Source of the DNA: an uncultured Bacteroidota bacterium
GTDB taxonomy: Bacteria > Bacteroidota > Bacteroidia > Chitinophagales > Chitinophagaceae
Reading direction: 5' to 3'
Assembly: GCA_903824665.1 (NCBI GenBank)
Contig: CAIJXT010000019.1
Location: 1 to 64,000 of the forward strand
DNA length: 64,000 nt
Part shown: positions 9,109 through 15,858 of the stretch, piece after piece
Numbering within the stretch: position 1 is the stretch's first letter
Layout: every line of letters begins with the position of its first letter
The notes under the pieces: model-generated
What the model was told of the DNA's origin: nothing
What the model saw: only the letters and a program-made list of their open reading frames with translations
Databases searched by the model: none
Translations under genes and position numbers: made by a program

Positions 9109-10437
9109 ATGAGCACAATGACGCGTTCTAAAATTGACTTTAAATTACCTTACAAAGTTAAGGACATCAGCCTCGCAGAGTGGGGGCGCAAGGAGATCAG
9201 GTTGGCAGAAGCTGAAATGCCCGGACTTATGGCGGTTCGTGAAGAATATGGCGCTCAGAAGCCATTGAAAGGTGCCCGTATCGCGGGTTGCCTGCACATG
9301 ACAATACAAACTGCCGTACTTATCGAGACATTGGTGGAATTGGGTGCTGAAGTACGTTGGAGTTCCTGCAACATTTTCTCTACTCAAGACCACGCCGCAG
9401 CTGCTATTGCCGCTGCCGGTATCGGTGTATTTGCCTGGAAAGGACAAAGCCTTGAAGAGGCTGATTGGTGTATCGAGCAGACATTGTTCTTCGGCAGCGA
9501 AGACCGTCCGCTCAACATGATCCTCGACGACGGTGGCGACCTTACCAACATCGTTCTCGATCATTACACAGAGCTGATTCAGCACATCAAGGGCCTCAGC
9601 GAAGAAACCACTACAGGTGTACACCGCCTTTACGAAAGAATGCAGAAAGGCACTTTGCCCGTACCTGCTATCAATGTAAATGACTCTGTTACCAAATCTA
9701 AATTCGACAACAAGTATGGCTGCCAGGAAAGTCTGGTTGATGCTATCCGCCGCGCTACAGACGTAATGATGGCAGGCAAAGTAGCCGTAGTTGGTGGTTA
9801 TGGCGACGTAGGCAAGGGTTCTGCCCTCTCTCTCCGTGGTGCCGGCGCCCGCGTTATCGTTACCGAGATCGATCCTATCTGCGCCCTTCAGGCTGCTATG
9901 GACGGTTTCGAAGTGAAGCGTATGATCGACGCAGTGAAAGAAGCCGACATCATCGTTACTGCTTCAGGTTGCCGCGACCTTATCACAGAAGCGCATTTCC
10001 GCTCTATGAAAGACAAGGCGATCGTTTGTAACATCGGCCACTTCGATATCGAAATAGATATGGCATGGCTCAATGGTGCTTACGGACATACCAAGGATAC
10101 CATCAAGCCACAGGTTGACCTATATACCATCGAAGGCAAAGATGTGATCATTCTGGCAGAAGGCCGTCTGGTAAACCTCGGCTGCGCTACCGGTCACCCA
10201 AGTTTTGTAATGAGTAACTCCTTTACAAACCAGACACTGGCTCAGATAGAATTGTGGCTCAACCACAGCAAGTACGAAAACAAAGTATACGTACTTCCAA
10301 AACATCTTGATGAAAAAGTAGCTCGTCTGCACCTTGCAAAAGTGGGCGCTCAGCTCGAAGAGCTCACCAACGAGCAGTCTGCTTACCTCGGTATACCTAA
10401 GTCTGGACCATACAAGCCAGAAATGTACCGTTATTAA
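9109..10437 (+). CDS. ahcY: Adenosylhomocysteinase
   Basis: A 442-residue NAD-dependent hydrolase that splits S-adenosylhomocysteine into adenosine and homocysteine in the activated methyl cycle. Visible features are the substrate site segment [16 protein letters not shown], the [11 protein letters not shown] loop, [12 protein letters not shown], the NAD-binding [11 protein letters not shown] (about residues 226-236), [11 protein letters not shown], and the C-terminal [12 protein letters not shown], whose Lys/Tyr complete the NAD site of the partner subunit. Full length. A second in-frame ATG three codons in could also start it. Flanked by its own promoter and terminator, so monocistronic. 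Confidence 0.97.
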
Positions 10438-10462
10438 TCTTCATCAAACAGTATAAAGCTCC

Positions 10463-10489
10463 CAAAAGCCCCGCGATGCGGGGCTTTTG
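10463..10489 (+). terminator. ahcY terminator
   Basis: Perfect CAAAAGCCCCGC / GCGGGGCTTTTG stem with a GAT loop, then a T-rich run. 25 bp after the ahcY stop. Confidence 0.9.
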
Positions 10490-10537
10490 TTTTGCCCCCC
10501 GTCTGCAACCTGCCAACGGCATCGGCCCATAGCACAG

Positions 10538-10597
10538 GGTCATTGCGAAGGTTTGCGCGTTGCCTTGCGCGCTGCCGCAAACCTGTGGCAATCTCAC
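10538..10597 (+). repeat. Hairpin repeat, left copy
   Basis: A 60-nt unit with conserved ends GGTCATTGCGA and GTGGCAATCTCAC and inner arms AGGTTTGCG / CGCAAACCT. It ends 17 bp before the GIY-YIG stop codon. Same family and orientation as the tandem array at 11086-11541, opposite to the copy at 10979-11037. Confidence 0.9.
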
Positions 10598-10614
10598 AAA
10601 ATTCAAATGCTCAC

Positions 10615-10923
10615 TCAATAAAGACGAATATCCTTCACTTGCTCCCACAAGTCTTTCCATTCGTAATTGAAGTTGTTGATCAGTGTTTCCTTCCTTCTGC
10701 GACTACCAGCTTTTATGGTTTTTTCTGCTGCAATGGCTTCTTCTATATCTATAAAATACTTGTACCATACCAGCATCACACAATTATACTTAGCTGTAAA
10801 ACTGTTTTCGTAAAATTTGGTTTTATGTTTCCATATCCTTGTCTGCAGGTCAGAAGTAACGCCGGTATACAACACGTTCCTGTCAGGTGAACAAACAATA
10901 TAAACCAAACCTCCTTTTTGCAT
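10615..10923 (-). CDS. GIY-YIG family endonuclease-like protein
   Basis: A 102-residue stand-alone GIY-YIG domain of the UPF0213/COG2827 type. The expected catalytic set is present: Tyr8 in VYIV, Tyr19 in LYTG (Thr replaces Ile of YIG), Arg29 in TRIWKHK, Glu67 in AAEKTIK, and the closing NYEWKDLW segment. No DNA-binding domain is attached. It lies between inverted copies of a hairpin repeat, with 17 bp to the left copy and 55 bp to the right. A TTAATTTG box (plus 10929-10936, one mismatch to TAnnTTTG) just before the ATG would give an almost leaderless transcript. Such small GIY-YIG proteins are frequent in Bacteroidota and their role is unproven. Association with the repeat is inferred from position. 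Confidence 0.88.
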   Translation of the reverse strand: MQKGGLVYIVCSPDRNVLYTGVTSDLQTRIWKHKTKFYENSFTAKYNCVMLVWYKYFIDIEEAIAAEKTIKAGSRRRKETLINNFNYEWKDLWEQVKDIRLY

Positions 10924-10978
10924 TCCGCCAAATTAACTAACTGAAGTTACAATACAATTTTGCAATCAACAATGTACC

Positions 10979-11037
10979 GCGAGATTGCCACACCTCGTGG
11001 CTGCCGCGCACAGCCAGGCACGAGGTTCGCAATGACC
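10979..11037 (-). repeat. Hairpin repeat, right inverted copy
   Basis: Read on the minus strand it has the same ends (GGTCATTGCGA and GTGGCAATCTCGC), but the inner arms are ACCTCGTG / CACGAGGT plus TGGCTG / CAGCCA. Pairing is kept while the sequence differs from the other copies. Confidence 0.88.
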
Positions 11038-11085
11038 TATCCGCTTTAGAAACGCATTTTGCCACCCAGTCAGACCACAGCAGAT

Positions 11086-11541
11086 GGTCATTGCGAAGGT
11101 TTGCGCGTTGCCCAGCGCGTTGTAGCAAGCCTGTGGCAATCTCGCGCCACACTGTGCCACACACCTGGTCATAACGAAGGTTTGCGCGTTGCCGCAAGCC
11201 TGTGGCAATCTCGCTCCACACCGTACCACTGCAGCTGGTCATTGCGAAGGTTTGCGCGTTGCCCTGCGCGCTGCCGCAAACCTGTGGCAATCTCGCTCCA
11301 CACCGTACCACAGCAGCTGGTCATTGCGAAGGTTTGCGCGTTGCCCAGCGCGCTGCCGCAAGCCAGTGGCAATCCCGCACCACACCGTGCACAGCCGCTG
11401 GTCATTGCGAAGGTTTGCGCGTTGCCCAGCGCGCTGCCGCAAACCTGTGGCAATCTCGCTCCACACCGTACCACAGCAGCAGGTCATTGCGAAGATTTGC
11501 GCGTTGCCTTGTGCCATGCCGTAAGCCTGTGGCAATCCCGC
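11086..11541 (+). repeat. Tandem array of six hairpin repeats, about 82-bp period
   Basis: Copies start at 11086, 11167, 11237, 11319, 11400 and 11482. Steps are 81, 70, 82, 81 and 82 bp; the short step reflects about 12 bp missing from the loop of copy 2. Each has a 60-nt core (GGTCATTGCGA ... GTGGCAATCTCGC, last copies CCCGC) and a partly conserved 22-nt linker like CCACACCGTACCACAGCAGC. Arms AGGTTTGCG / CGCAAACCT pair in most copies. Core plus linker is amplified as one unit. The long ORFs running through it are repeat artefacts. Confidence 0.92.
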
Positions 11542-11637
11542 GCCATACTGGGCCGCAGCAGAGCTTTCGCCATTCACGAGACCCGCCTGCATCTAACTAC
11601 GGAAGTTGAATCTCGACGAACAATCCAAATACATGCC

Positions 11638-11850
11638 CTACATCATATAATCCACTTCCTTCCAGCTGTCCATTGGCACTCCAAACTCCTCAAGGGCTGT
11701 TTCTTTGCAAAATTGAATGCTATTTTGAAAATAATCATATGTACAGAAATCGTTTTCATATACGAATAAAAAGGAACCAAAATTTGGTATGTGATCAGTT
11801 ATTAAAAACCGCTTCTGATTAAATTCCGTCTCAAGTACTATATGGTACAT
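11638..11850 (-). CDS. Small immunity-like protein, unknown
   Basis: A 70-residue acidic, aromatic-rich protein beginning MYHIVLETEF. This ATG is preferred because GGAAAAAAG lies ahead of it; an upstream in-frame ATG at 11880 would add 10 residues. The end (ALEEFGVPMDSWKEV) resembles the C-terminal helix of small orphan immunity proteins of polymorphic toxin systems, but I cannot name a family. AT-rich like the two genes that follow and unlike the core genes, so probably acquired. No toxin gene adjoins it. Confidence 0.55.
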   Translation of the reverse strand: MYHIVLETEFNQKRFLITDHIPNFGSFLFVYENDFCTYDYFQNSIQFCKETALEEFGVPMDSWKEVDYMM

Positions 11851-12050
11851 TATATCTTTTTTCCGATGGCAAAATCTCATTCAATAGTCTCTTTTGTCAT
11901 GCTTGCATCCTAAGAATACCCCATCTCCCGCCGGTCTTTTCGATTCGCATCTCACTTGTCGCAGTGTTGTTCTCTTGCCAATTCAGGACAGCCCGTTGAT
12001 TCACCCAACTTCCCAAGATTGGCAAAATCAAACATCAGGGAATTTACCAT

Positions 12051-12929
12051 TTAGCGGTTTATTTCCTTAAATGTATGCGAATAATGTTTTTTATCCAAAA
12101 ATCCCACATATTTAATGCCGATGGCATTGGATAGATCCCCGTCTATCACACATGTATCTACAAAAGAGAAATGTTCAAGTCTTTTTAATAATTTCAAAAA
12201 GCTTAAGGTTATTATATCTTTTGAAGAAAAAATGCTCAAATAACGTAATTCATGTAGCCCGCCTATTACCTCGTAACTATCAAAATTTTTGCAATGATCA
12301 ATGACTAATTCTTGAATGCTATTTCTAGCAAATGCTAGTCCATTGATGCAAAATTTCGATCTTATATAATTCAGTTCAATTCGTCTAACATATTTAAGAT
12401 CTTTTATAAAATCAACATTATCAATGTTTGCTTGAGTCAGACCAAGTACTTCAATGTTTTTAGGACATGGAAATCCTGAATTCAATTTGCCAAATACGCG
12501 ATACTTGCGAATATACAATTCCTTCAAACTAAGACATTCACTCAAATTTACTAATCCCTTATGCCAAAATACATTGCAATATTCCAATTTTTTGAAACAA
12601 GCAAAATCTATCGGGCTTTTATTATTTCCACCAACAAATAGCTCCTTCAGGTTCGCACAAAAAATCAAACCCGACAGGTCGATTGTATCGTCAACAATGT
12701 TGATTTTTTCCACAACTGATGAAATATCTTTCAAGAAGTCAGTATCACGCAAAACATACCCATATCTGCAATTTAGTGATATACCAGAAATGCTTTTTTT
12801 GTTTACATAGCTTATAGTTTCTTCCATTCTGTTGGATTCGACCAATAGATTCAAAATTCTATTTCCAACTTTTTCAAACTTGAACCCATCAATTATTTCA
12901 ACATTCATAAGCAATAGTTTACTGTTCAT
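12051..12929 (-). CDS. Leucine-rich-repeat-like protein
   Basis: A 292-residue cytosolic protein, AT-rich, with about eight irregular leucine-rich repeats of 20-24 residues: LKELFVGGN, LEYCNVFWHKGL, LKELYIRKYRVF, IEVLGLTQANI, IQELVIDHCKNF, LRYLSIFSSKDI, LEHFSFVDTCVI. No signal peptide or sorting domain, so it is likely intracellular. Such short LRR proteins occur among orphan immunity genes in toxin islands; that is inference. The start is the first ATG (12929), but MNVEIIDG at 12908 is also possible. Confidence 0.65.
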   Translation of the reverse strand: MNSKLLLMNVEIIDGFKFEKVGNRILNLLVESNRMEETISYVNKKSISGISLNCRYGYVLRDTDFLKDISSVVEKINIVDDTIDLSGLIFCANLKELFVGGNNKSPIDFACFKKLEYCNVFWHKGLVNLSECLSLKELYIRKYRVFGKLNSGFPCPKNIEVLGLTQANIDNVDFIKDLKYVRRIELNYIRSKFCINGLAFARNSIQELVIDHCKNFDSYEVIGGLHELRYLSIFSSKDIITLSFLKLLKRLEHFSFVDTCVIDGDLSNAIGIKYVGFLDKKHYSHTFKEINR

Positions 12930-12937
12930 CTAGGCAA

Positions 12938-12960
12938 AAAGAGGGATAGCCACCCTCTTT
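12938..12960 (-). terminator. Intrinsic terminator
   Basis: On the minus strand, AAAGAGGG / CCCTCTTT with a 7-nt loop and then a T run. It ends the secreted-protein gene (13006-13596) and separates it from the LRR gene. Confidence 0.75.
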
Positions 12961-13005
12961 CCTACTCTTTTACCCGTGATGTGCTAGGTATTGATATCAT
13001 ATATA

Positions 13006-13596
13006 TCATCTAGAGCATGTTGCGTTGGATTCTCTATAGATCAAACGGTCAAATTGCAAACTACCTACCCCAACAACACAATCAGATATGTACAATATGT
13101 AGTCATTCTCTTCGACTAATCCTATCACGACACCTAAATCATGTGCTACCAAATACATTTCAGGCAACCTCATAAATTCAAATTCCCTCTTTACAATTCT
13201 TTTGTGCGTGAACTTATTCAGGAATTTTTTCCTTCCCTTTTTCATCCATTTTTTATAAAATTTTGTTTTGTTTATTTCAATTCCATTTAGCCTACCAAAT
13301 TCGGCATACGTAAAAGGTTCATCGCATAGCATCTTCCGTTCAATAATTTTGTCAAAATTTTCACCATATATATTTATATTTTTACTAAAATTAGTGTAAA
13401 ACCATCCGCCTTGCTGAAGGTAGGTGTGTGTGTTGTTTGCGGAATCTATATATCTGAATATAATATATCCATAATTTTGGTTTAATATTTTTTTAATGAA
13501 AGTCTTCCTGCATGCTGTATCGATTGCGCAATAACTTTTTGCACAATTCAAAAAAACAATGATACAAAGCACAAAAATAAATCTGTTAATTCTCAT
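13006..13596 (-). CDS. Secreted protein of unknown function
   Basis: A 196-residue AT-rich gene product with an N-terminal signal sequence (MRINRFIFVLCIIVFLNCAK). The mature part is basic in the middle (KKWMKKGRKKFLNKFTHKR, about residues 115-133) and ends in a strand-rich section (YLVAHDLGVVIGLVEENDYILYI). No family recognised. It has its own terminator. Base composition ties it to the LRR and immunity-like genes of the same island. Confidence 0.55.
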   Translation of the reverse strand: MRINRFIFVLCIIVFLNCAKSYCAIDTACRKTFIKKILNQNYGYIIFRYIDSANNTHTYLQQGGWFYTNFSKNINIYGENFDKIIERKMLCDEPFTYAEFGRLNGIEINKTKFYKKWMKKGRKKFLNKFTHKRIVKREFEFMRLPEMYLVAHDLGVVIGLVEENDYILYISDCVVGVGSLQFDRLIYRESNATCSR

Positions 13597-13658
13597 CTGT
13601 TTTCAGAGTTTGTTTTTCATTAGTCGATTTTTCGTCAAAAAACACATTCCGGGCTTGG

Positions 13659-13704
13659 CGTAGTCTCTGACTACGTCATACTGGTGGCCAATCTCCAGAT
13701 TGGC
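13659..13704. repeat. REP-type hairpin pair next to a dead transposase
   Basis: Two perfect short palindromes: CGTAGTC-TCT-GACTACG (13659-13675) and GCCAATC-TCCA-GATTGGC (13687-13704). They lie 9 bp beyond the 3' end of the transposase remnant, the expected place for the REP elements mobilised by REP-associated tyrosine transposases. Sequence-unrelated to the GGTCATTGCG repeats. Confidence 0.75.
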
Positions 13705-13712
13705 GAAAAAAA

Positions 13713-13961
13713 TCACCAAGTCTCCAACGGTATCTGACCTTTTTCATTTCCATACAGTGCAGCCGCACTGCTGTAAATTTAATCTTCTTCGCGCTTTACC
13801 CAACCCGCTCTTACCGGGTTTTGATGAATATAATCAAGCTTTTGTCTGAAGAACCCGTGTGACGAAACACTAATAGCGTGGTTCTCATGTGTCCATACCT
13901 GATATTTACTATTACGTTCATGCTTCGACGCATTCCACTCAAACCGGTGCTGCAGCCAGTC
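13713..13961 (-). pseudogene. REP-associated tyrosine transposase remnant (RAYT, Y1-Tnp C-terminal part)
   Basis: On the minus strand one frame reads WLQHRFEWNASKHERNSKY, then VWTHENHAI, then KLDYIHQNPVRAGWVKREED, the C-terminal signature of IS200-like/RAYT transposases. A TAA codon at 13779-13781 interrupts the conserved (Y)IYSSA segment, where the family has Tyr, and the frame then continues with IYSSAAALYG to a TGA at 13713-13715. The N-terminal half with the HUH and catalytic Tyr motifs is absent: upstream sequence does not continue the family. It is therefore a 5'-truncated gene with a nonsense mutation. Confidence 0.85.
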
Positions 13962-13970
13962 CCCCGCTAG

Positions 13971-14236
13971 CCTTCCCTTTCTTTCTGCCAGAGACCCTCC
14001 GAGATCGGAATACTGCCACTAACCATACAACTTTGCATGTAAAAAAGTCTTCAGGAAGTAATTCAAAAATCACCTTTCCACTATAAAAATATGGCATGAT
14101 ATTTGTGCCATTATCACTCCGTACTTTATGCTTCGCTGCCGCCATGTAAACTAAAATCGGGATTATGCGGCAAGAATAAAAACTAAGGATACCTGCCAGC
14201 AACCCACTGCTGCCATTGCACAAAGTGGGAAGAGCG
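13971..14236. other. Intergenic sequence, no convincing gene
   Basis: Between the transposase remnant and the TGCGCA cluster. A minus-strand frame near 14145 (MAAAKHKVRSDNGTNIMPYF) reads plausibly for about 50 codons but runs into the transposase area without a natural end and matches nothing I know. It may be another gene fragment. Confidence 0.35.
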
Positions 14237-14535
14237 TGCGCAATTTTTGCGCAAAAATAAAAAGCGCAGCTACGTACAAAACACTAAAAATCAATACTTT
14301 ATAACAACTACAGCGTTACACCAAAAAAATTGCGCACCCGTGCGCAAAAACCAAAATCAACCATTCCAGCGCCACCTTATCCACCACCCACCTCGCACAC
14401 AAAACGCACTGCAAAACGGGCAAAACTGCGCAAAAAGTGCGCAAAAATATAAGCAGACCAAATATACAAATCACTGAAAATGAAGGAAATAAACCCAAAT
14501 ACACCAAAACCAAAATTGCGCAGCAAAACTGCGCA
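14237..14535. repeat. Four evenly spaced pairs of TGCGCA sites
   Basis: TGCGCA occurs at 14237+14248, 14331+14341, 14427+14438 and 14517+14530. Starts within a pair are 10-13 nt apart (about one helical turn) and pairs recur every 94, 96 and 90 bp. The second member is followed by a run of A (TGCGCAAAAA) in all four. Sequence between pairs is A-rich but not conserved. It lies directly upstream of the DUF922 gene. It looks like an array of protein-binding sites; function unknown. Confidence 0.7.
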
Positions 14536-14631
14536 AAAACACCAAAACAGGCAGCCTGTACCTGGGCAATTCCGCAACTATTTTGCCATTACCCACACAA
14601 CACTTAATTTGCCCAACCATATTTCCGGAAC

Positions 14632-15858
14632 ATGCGCTTATTAATACTCTTCGCAATACTTACCGCCCACCTACCCGCCCTCTGCCAGACCGACGACTGG
14701 ATAGCACCCGAGGGCAAGATCATCAACTACCGCACACTCAACTGGAACGACTTTATAGGCAAGCCCAGGGGCGAGGAAGACAAATATACCCTGGCGGCTG
14801 TGTGCCCCGCTATATATTATTATGCCGATAGCGGTCATATACTGCCCAACGGCAGGGTGGCATTCAAATTCACGGTAAAGTGTGCGTTCCAGAGCGATGC
14901 CTTTGTACGCGAGGCCACCGCCAAAGAGCATACCAACTACTACCTCATACACGAGCAAAACCATTACGATATTGCCCTCACCTACGCCCGCCTGCTGCAG
15001 CAGCAACTGTCTGCCCGCGACTACAGCAAAGACAACTATAGCGACGAGATGGACAAAGTCAACGAGGCATTGTACAAAAACTACCGCAAAACCCAGACCA
15101 GCTACGACGGCGAGGTGAACCCTGAGGGCCGCATGGCGAAAGAAAAACAATACCTCTGGGATATGCGCGTACGCAAATGTATGGAGCAGAACACCGATGA
15201 GTTTTATGCCAGCCCCGAGGCCGTGGTGGCAACCGTCAGGGGCCTTGGGCAAACCGTAAAAAGAATACCCGGCGAGCCGGCACGCCAGTTTGTGGTCAGG
15301 GCCCGGCCTCTCTATACCGAGTATCCGCAGGAGATGGTGTCACGCCTGATAGAAACACAGGCATGGACCGTCGAAAAATCGATCATCGCTTTCTATACCC
15401 AGAAGTACTACCTCTCTGAAGATGGCATGACCCCCAAAGACTACCTGCGCGTACTGGCATTTGCATTTGTGCCCAATGGCAAAGACACCTACCGCCGGGT
15501 ATTGATAGACACCTTCAGCAATCTCGACAAGCCCGTGAAAATAGTAGCAGCCTTTTTCGCCAATGCCGACTCTGATGCCACACGCGAGCTGGTGATCGTA
15601 ACCAGCACGGCCCAGCGCGATGCCCGCAGCAATGGCACCCACTACAGCACACGCATATACGACAACATAAAACCGAAAGCCCTGCCCGCGAAGCTGAAAA
15701 AACTGGACGATGTAGCAGCAAAAGTCAGCGGCGGCTTTGACGGCGATATGGATGGTAGGCCACTGAAAGCGAAGTACAAAACAGAGGCCGAGGTAGCAGA
15801 GGCACTAACAAAAATGGGATACATCACCGTGCCGCTGCCTCCGGTCATCACCTACTAA
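14632..15858 (+). CDS. DUF922-type secreted putative zinc protease
   Basis: A 408-residue protein with an N-terminal signal peptide (cleavage near ALCQ, residue 19). The first half matches DUF922: LNWNDFIG near residue 36 and the HEQNHYDIALTYARLL helix near 107, an HExxH zinc-binding motif. The second half (about 200-408) is unassigned; it has a repeated alpha/beta character and a DGDMDGRP segment. The periplasmic or surface location and hydrolase role are inferred from the signal and motif. The region upstream carries the TGCGCA site pairs. A small membrane-protein gene follows after 15 bp. Confidence 0.78.
   Translation: MRLLILFAILTAHLPALCQTDDWIAPEGKIINYRTLNWNDFIGKPRGEEDKYTLAAVCPAIYYYADSGHILPNGRVAFKFTVKCAFQSDAFVREATAKEHTNYYLIHEQNHYDIALTYARLLQQQLSARDYSKDNYSDEMDKVNEALYKNYRKTQTSYDGEVNPEGRMAKEKQYLWDMRVRKCMEQNTDEFYASPEAVVATVRGLGQTVKRIPGEPARQFVVRARPLYTEYPQEMVSRLIETQAWTVEKSIIAFYTQKYYLSEDGMTPKDYLRVLAFAFVPNGKDTYRRVLIDTFSNLDKPVKIVAAFFANADSDATRELVIVTSTAQRDARSNGTHYSTRIYDNIKPKALPAKLKKLDDVAAKVSGGFDGDMDGRPLKAKYKTEAEVAEALTKMGYITVPLPPVITY

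Follow-up and report, generated by a model that had tools for sequence, protein, structure and literature searches.

The nuclease gene and its hairpin repeats

The window, a stretch of 64,000 nucleotides from contig C19 of an uncultured member of the Chitinophagaceae, carries a small GIY-YIG nuclease gene next to the S-adenosylhomocysteinase gene AHCY (Table 1). The earlier note had placed this gene between inverted hairpin repeats, and the PF01541 match together with strict repeats on both sides confirms it. The two copies named there are genuine, and the array runs on for 500 bp past the end given in that note, to position 11537. Among the further open reading frames of the surrounding island, one has a sub-threshold match to leucine-rich repeats (LRR) and two have no family match.

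Table 1. Features at the nuclease locus (positions in the window)
Feature	Position	Strand	Remarks
S-adenosylhomocysteinase (AHCY) gene	9109..10437	+	conserved left neighbour
Lineage-specific island	10438..14631	.	nuclease, repeats, 3 further ORFs
Hairpin repeat	10540..10593	+	21 bp past gene stop; head GGTCAT faces away from gene
GIY-YIG nuclease gene, 102 aa	10615..10923	-	PF01541 match, E=1.6e-13
Hairpin repeat, different interior	10983..11035	-	59 bp ahead of start codon; head faces away from gene
Array copy 1, hairpin repeat	11088..11141	+	strict pattern
Array copy 2, degenerate and shortened (TCATAACGA...GGCAATC)	11169..11210 (approximate)	+	counted by eye
Array copy 3, hairpin repeat	11239..11292	+	strict pattern
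Array copy 4, hairpin repeat	11321..11374	+	strict pattern
Array copy 5, hairpin repeat	11402..11455	+	strict pattern
Array copy 6, hairpin repeat	11484..11537	+	strict pattern
Further island ORFs	11638-11880, 12051-12929, 13006-13596		

An AF2 model of the protein has a mean pLDDT of 93, and no second domain was found in its 102 residues beyond PF01541. Searches of defence and phage libraries returned no match. In the 13-member alignment A1, the residues Y8, Y19, R29, H33, E67 and N86 are invariant; these are the catalytic positions of the GIY-YIG fold. The sole Foldseek match under 0.001 was the UPF0213 structure 1zg2, and the next ones, Slx1 (4xlg and 7cq3, E-values of 0.04 to 0.06) and UvrC, were all weak. 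The likeness to Slx1, a structure-specific nuclease, hints at branched DNA as substrate, at these weak E-values. Membership in UPF0213, implied in the earlier note, narrows to a distant relationship: the A1 profile matches the UPF0213 structures 1ywl and 1zg2 at E-values of about 1e-5 and has no NCBIfam hit at 0.001. Size and fold are common to the window protein and the single-domain GIY-YIG proteins of UPF0213, which we take to be of the YhbQ type, but the window protein belongs to a separate, repeat-flanked clade (A1 clade), whereas the other small GIY-YIG clades examined are mostly without repeats.

The strict repeat pattern, TCATTGCGA-N(10-40)-GCAATC, occurs 23 times across all 35 contigs of the genome (4.73 Mb), compared to no occurrence of the reversed control pattern. 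Because identical ends recur around differing interiors, chance can be excluded and the copies represent a dispersed family. Contig C19 holds eight strict copies, seven of them inside one 1-kb stretch, the nuclease locus. Folded as DNA, three of four window copies form the outer stem ATTGC/GCAAT in the minimum-energy structure and the fourth does so in the centroid; total fold energies of the four were modestly better than those of shuffled sequences (z between -0.9 and -2.1).

In the available part of their paper, Di Nocera et al. (2013, PMC3733652) describe CGTC-type REPs from five phyla, including the Neisserial dRS3 (CGTC-1) and the Rickettsial RPE-4/6. These REPs are said there to 'lack a dedicated transposase', 'apparently', with enzyme extinction or borrowed transposases offered as explanations. 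The window's repeats share with CGTC-tagged REPs the xGTC tag, the dispersed families and an AT that opens the stem and is paired there, which was found in the seven strict window copies (ATTGC/GCAAT). As the scan used for the survey of relatives demanded A, then T or C, at these two positions, the survey is no independent test of this feature. The tag itself is GGTC in the window and CGTC, TGTC, CCTC, AGTC or GGTC in relatives. An 8-9 bp stem with a 4-5 nt loop and a CCA-like tail was seen by eye in Rhizobiaceae copies, and one Neisseria copy folds with a stem of 8 bp and a loop of 4, but the window copies differ in having a 5-bp outer stem, mismatches, a long, imperfect inner stem and another tail. 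The repeats in the window are thus a CGTC-like variant with a GGTC tag and an imperfect stem.

Association of the repeats with one GIY-YIG clade

A scan of genome contigs yielded 15 loci encoding relatives of the window protein, and the plain pattern (head TCATTGCGA with at most one mismatch, followed by GCAATC) stood beside eight of them. The seven misses carry variant stems or tails, namely ATTTC/GAAAT in two Pedobacter and a Tenacibaculum, ATTAC/GTAAT in L020 and GCAACC tails in L019, L021 and L027, and we therefore adopted a covariation-aware element: TCAT, with its last two letters as the start of a 5-bp stem, then a spacer of 3-60 nt, the second, complementary stem arm and a C. A version with a 6-bp stem lost the signal (4/80 in the larger set below), because the sixth pair is unformed in the Bacteroidota type. 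L019 and L021, which belong to one genome, hold tandem units of about 600 bp, and DNA homology between L019 and L027, which come from different genomes, spans from inside the upstream hairpin to inside the downstream hairpin.

At E<=1e-10 the A1 clade is present in 174 of 394 family genomes. From the listed matches, 80 loci were taken in order of match quality, each with flanks of 4 kb unless the contig was shorter. The window's own locus and three copies standing in tandem in G299 were left out; five or more of the 80 seem to recur from the first 15, and the set includes related genomes. As controls we used 40 loci of other GIY-YIG clades, hand-picked from the listed PF01541 matches. Repeat and gene are physically associated: the element lies within 400 bp of 58 of the 80 clade genes, in 34 cases on both sides, with a density of 2.72/kb near the gene versus 0.311/kb far from it. 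The controls gave 13 of 40 with an element, three of them on both sides, and 0.57/kb near versus 0.224/kb far. Only two of these 13 were judged real (L140, L145), the rest being chance-like, and one of the two is the control nearest to the A1 clade (93 bits with the A1-HMM).

When 1024 head/tail motifs were ranked, TCAT...C came first with its 58 loci; the second motif (55) is this element seen on the other strand, the third reached 35 and the median was 7. By eye, each of the 22 loci missed by the rule has a variant hairpin, L069 and L074 being seen in part. Flank orientation is loose, with +- in 17 of 32 pairs.

The element, fixed beforehand, was also applied to an out-of-sample set. With a threshold of E<=1e-15, the clade was found in 141 of 296 phylum-wide genomes, and 29 loci, all from other families and with the window's own left out, were fetched. 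Using a downstream limit of 430 bp from the match end, 28 of the 29 have an element nearby, 23 on both sides (4.74/kb versus 0.576/kb). By eye, the xGTCAT head is present in 26 of the 29 and absent at L267, L272 and L273. The earlier note had made enrichment of nuclease genes near the repeat the test of its proposal, and the proposal passed: the enrichment is far above local background in both sets, and it is specific, as the 40 genes of other GIY-YIG clades are mostly without the repeat. The association belongs to the A1 clade; PF01541 is too broad a unit, and among its matches listed only the window's own gene adjoins a strict repeat (by eye).

Foldable hairpins close to a gene could also be immobile and serve the nuclease gene as terminators or in the processing of its RNA. 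This explanation is extremely improbable in our view, because the same hairpins occur at many sites without a clade gene, they form arrays, and at the 80 clade loci the element is about as common upstream (48 loci) as downstream (44 loci).

Gene and repeat also co-occur at the level of whole genomes. In 98 family genomes, the clade was found in 20 of the 28 that are positive for ATTGC or ATTTC repeats versus 20 of the 70 negatives (Fisher p = 2e-4), with 14/18 versus 26/80 for ATTGC alone (p = 0.001) and 13/20 versus 27/78 for ATTTC alone (p = 0.02). The 20 gene-positive genomes among the 70 pattern-negative ones perhaps carry other stem types. Eight of the 28 repeat-positive genomes have no clade match at E<=1e-10, including G037 (17 copies) and G064 (18+2), so that repeats can now exist without the clade gene. 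G031, G037, G062 and G064 hold 4 to 20 clade-type repeats and no A1-clade gene at this threshold; their repeats may have lost their enzyme or depend on a more distantly related one. G085 carries 83 ATTTC repeats and a single clade gene, which is located in an array of them. In this 8.4-Mb single-contig genome, the gene stands beside an array of five (G085:C1:656559-657485), and among the places listed the repeats are mainly of two subtypes, often in opposed pairs.

A Y1 transposase gene is present in 15 of the 18 ATTGC-positive genomes, which would fit a role of RAYT-type Y1 transposases in moving the repeats in trans, with the GIY-YIG protein resolving, trimming or restricting the hairpins. 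However, no PF01797 match was found in the window's genome at E<=0.001, and the Y1 transposase is likewise absent from G042 and from G052, which has 24 ATTTC repeats. Inside single genomes the repeat type follows the GIY-YIG clade, and in CGTC-bearing species the available part of PMC3733652 counts no tyrosine transposase gene flanked by CGTC repeats. We therefore regard this division of labour as improbable.

Some other small GIY-YIG clades sit among tRNA genes. In the window's own genome two such genes adjoin the tRNA genes for Asn and Lys (L002 and L003, on C26 and C30), and at L147, L152, L154, L166 and L167 they adjoin tRNA genes for Ala, Asp, Met and Pro. Some of them stand in tandem, about 340-380 bp apart, with repeated tRNA copies or fragments between them, and possibly represent a second, tRNA-associated mobile GIY-YIG unit.

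Stem type and the protein tree

The stems of the repeats covary. Of 373 heads TCANNNNGA, 186 have the complement of their own stem downstream, compared to a mean of 52.9 and a maximum of 74 in 2000 permutations in which stems were exchanged among the heads near clade genes. The protein tree, on which the stem types were placed, comprises 102 rows and rests on a short alignment with many weak forks. It omits L017, L019-L021, L024, L026 and L027, most of which duplicate fetched loci or have a broken frame, as well as A1 loci with a frame below 85 residues, and it keeps both of the identical L022 and L067.

On this tree, with 79 rows labelled by their 5-nt stem, the stem type requires 31 changes versus a shuffled mean of 49.8 (minimum 44, 500 shuffles). 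For ATTGC/ATTTC, a single change suffices in the 42 rows outside the plasmid set (shuffled mean 14.3, minimum 8, 1000 shuffles), and purine versus pyrimidine at stem position 4 requires three (mean 26.7, minimum 19, 1000 shuffles). The matching is also visible inside single genomes, where members in different protein clades carry different stems: ATTGC, ATTTC and ACTGC in G132, ATTTC and ATTGC in G298, ATTTC and ACTGC in G100. Across whole genomes, the types of repeat and protein agree weakly (rho 0.51, p 0.05, n 15, with two proteins carrying M or L at residue 73 put in the purine class). Stem type follows the protein clade, with compensatory stem changes.

The best separators in the protein are residues 72-73, which sit at a turn between two predicted helices. 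At residue 73, G, C or R goes with a purine in 36 of 36 cases and W, F or Y with a pyrimidine in 40 of 43, a correlation that amounts to one to four independent pairs, for which reason we treat a residue-73 code as a hypothesis. One mismatching label, that of L189, stems from a chance element next to a real ATTCC repeat. If it holds, the small or basic versus aromatic side chains of this turn would help to read purine versus pyrimidine at stem position 4.

Filled and empty sites, other phyla and a possible enzyme for CGTC-type REPs

Sites without gene and array, the comparison to which the earlier note had pointed, were found at the AHCY loci, at the G321 site, in Shinella and in Sinorhizobium. 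Downstream of full-length AHCY, the nuclease gene and repeat array are absent in all 26 other loci of the genus examined, two of which have only 479 and 1220 bp downstream; the partial loci L220-L222 were excluded. L210 has one ATTTC-like hairpin downstream of AHCY, and a few loci have scattered, chance-like matches. At L195, L198 and L218, AHCY is directly followed by a homologue of the window gene at 14632 (translated by eye), so that about 4.2 kb are extra in the window's lineage. In the window, this comparison does not show the minimal mobile cassette of the earlier note, as the lineage-specific insert is of that larger size.

The left flank of the nuclease locus in G321 matches in 14 of 14 genomes searched, and at the six loci read the gene is missing between the flanks; four members of the genus (G369, G083, G292 and G390) have a related gene elsewhere. 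In a relative of G321, G427, the same intergenic site is occupied by a Y1_Tnp gene (L243 867-1430, PF01797 E=5e-7) whose ends carry GGCGCAAGCGTCTCGCTTG-like repeats, and L245 shows an apparent remnant. One intergenic slot thus seems to be used by two unrelated repeat systems.

Such a slot, like the variable island in the window, is what one would look for if repeats and small genes both collected in variable intergenic islands and their association were indirect. We hold this to be very improbable: the 40 other GIY-YIG genes are mostly without hairpins, the element density around clade genes drops to background within several hundred bp, and mere co-residence gives no reason for the match between protein clade and stem type.

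The pairing extends beyond Bacteroidota. A tblastn search of a plasmid collection with the window protein gave 30 records, 14 of which were fetched, and by eye xGTCAT or CCTCAT hairpins lie within 400 bp at 11 of the 14 loci: Neorhizobium, Sinorhizobium (2), Shinella (2), Rhizobium (2), Neisseria gonorrhoeae, Aeromonas, the cyanobacterium Planktothrix and Spirosoma (Bacteroidota). At the remaining three, two in Sphingobium and one in Novosphingobium, convincing flanking hairpins were absent. The TCAT rule scores 12 of 14, including a chance-like match in Novosphingobium; a looser TCA[TC] rule scored 14 of 14 and was set aside in favour of the count by eye. The pairing thus recurs with CGTC-tagged REPs in Alpha-, Beta- and Gammaproteobacteria and in a cyanobacterium, and the clade occurs with its repeats in three phyla (Bacteroidota, Pseudomonadota and Cyanobacteriota). 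At the Rhizobiaceae, Neisseria and Aeromonas loci, CGTC-tagged REPs adjoin the clade gene, and from its tag, the genus and the dRS3 sequence we take the Neisseria array to be dRS3. On the Planktothrix agardhii plasmid (L183), clade gene and repeats lie between a gene for an MmeI-type restriction enzyme and the DISARM gene drmA.

Three Shinella records, two of which were aligned, carry a segment of about 590 bp that is missing from the three others read. As far as the diverged alignment shows, it starts and ends with CGTC REPs. In Sinorhizobium, the flanks are 94% identical, and their match breaks off within the REP palindrome. No exact point of insertion with a duplicated target emerged, the Bacteroidota sequences having diverged too far and the Sinorhizobium junction being ambiguous. 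These comparisons show a gain or a loss that is roughly repeat-bounded.

GIY-YIG is a classic homing-endonuclease fold, and a homing-like element is conceivable, in which repeats already in place are cut by the nuclease and the unit is copied into the cut by recombination, solitary repeats having another origin. It would fit Sinorhizobium, where the difference between filled and empty sites has both its ends within the REP palindrome and one hybrid REP is left in the empty allele (one read, of three such records). The same junction fits an insertion or a deletion between repeated 9-bp arms alike, and the Shinella empty sites that were read keep no repeat. Homing would also leave unexplained why solitary repeats share their ends and why there are repeat arrays with no additional copy of the gene, as in the window (11088-11537) and in G085. 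We consider it an unlikely but serious alternative.

The reading that we prefer, and that we consider quite likely, is that the clade nuclease is the cognate enzyme of the CGTC-like repeats, recognising end motif and stem and driving their spread and turnover. RAYT enzymes are matched to their repeat type. As in REP/RAYT systems (GTAG REPs with TnpA-REP; REPtrons, REPINs), a small gene is flanked by inverted palindromic repeats, repeat copies are dispersed both singly and in clusters, and the protein is matched to the repeat type, but the enzyme there is an HUH tyrosine transposase and the repeat end GTAG, whereas here they are GIY-YIG and xGTCAT. Of the features that define a REPtron, the window and relatives show inverted repeats from a dispersed family on both sides of a gene, but in place of an HUH Y1 transposase between the repeats the flanked gene of the window matches PF01541.

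According to this preferred reading, a distinct GIY-YIG clade would recognise its cognate hairpin through TCAT and stem at one end and stem and C at the other, probably as a single-stranded hairpin or cruciform DNA, and probably cut there. Cutting would drive spread, tandem amplification and turnover of the 'repeat - gene - inverted repeat' unit and likewise the spread of solitary repeats with the same ends. The nuclease would thus serve CGTC-type repeats as RAYT serves GTAG REPs, by unrelated chemistry. The earlier note had already conjectured that the nuclease may nick the hairpins or resolve them and bring about their spread; we infer recognition, cutting and spread from the RAYT analogy, the type matching and the repeat-bounded turnover, and direct binding, cleavage, a single-stranded substrate and mobilisation in cis and in trans would follow the same analogy. 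The REP-RAYT analogue on a GIY-YIG fold that the earlier note envisaged gains support from the repeat type following the protein, and the pairing of gene and repeat is supported about as far as genome comparison allows.

The A1 clade is the best candidate that we know of for the missing enzyme of the CGTC REPs, and probably is that enzyme. With somewhat less assurance, we favour the wider proposal that the whole superfamily of CGTC-type REPs has its dedicated enzyme in this GIY-YIG clade, in at least three phyla, and that residues 72-73 help to read stem position 4. A literature search, with most subscription papers and all preprints outside its range, showed no paper linking GIY-YIG proteins to REPs among those listed, and a term search for 'GIY' gave no occurrence in the available text of a 2025 REP survey (PMC12306157) and of PMC6006769.

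A type-matched nuclease clade makes the question of the CGTC REP enzyme testable with a 100-residue protein and an oligonucleotide of 30-60 nt. If the proposal is true, it would give a role to a common small GIY-YIG clade (174/394 family and 141/296 phylum genomes) and add a second, unrelated solution to the task of RAYT, with a class of mobile elements that is based on GIY-YIG chemistry and in which each clade reads its own stem.
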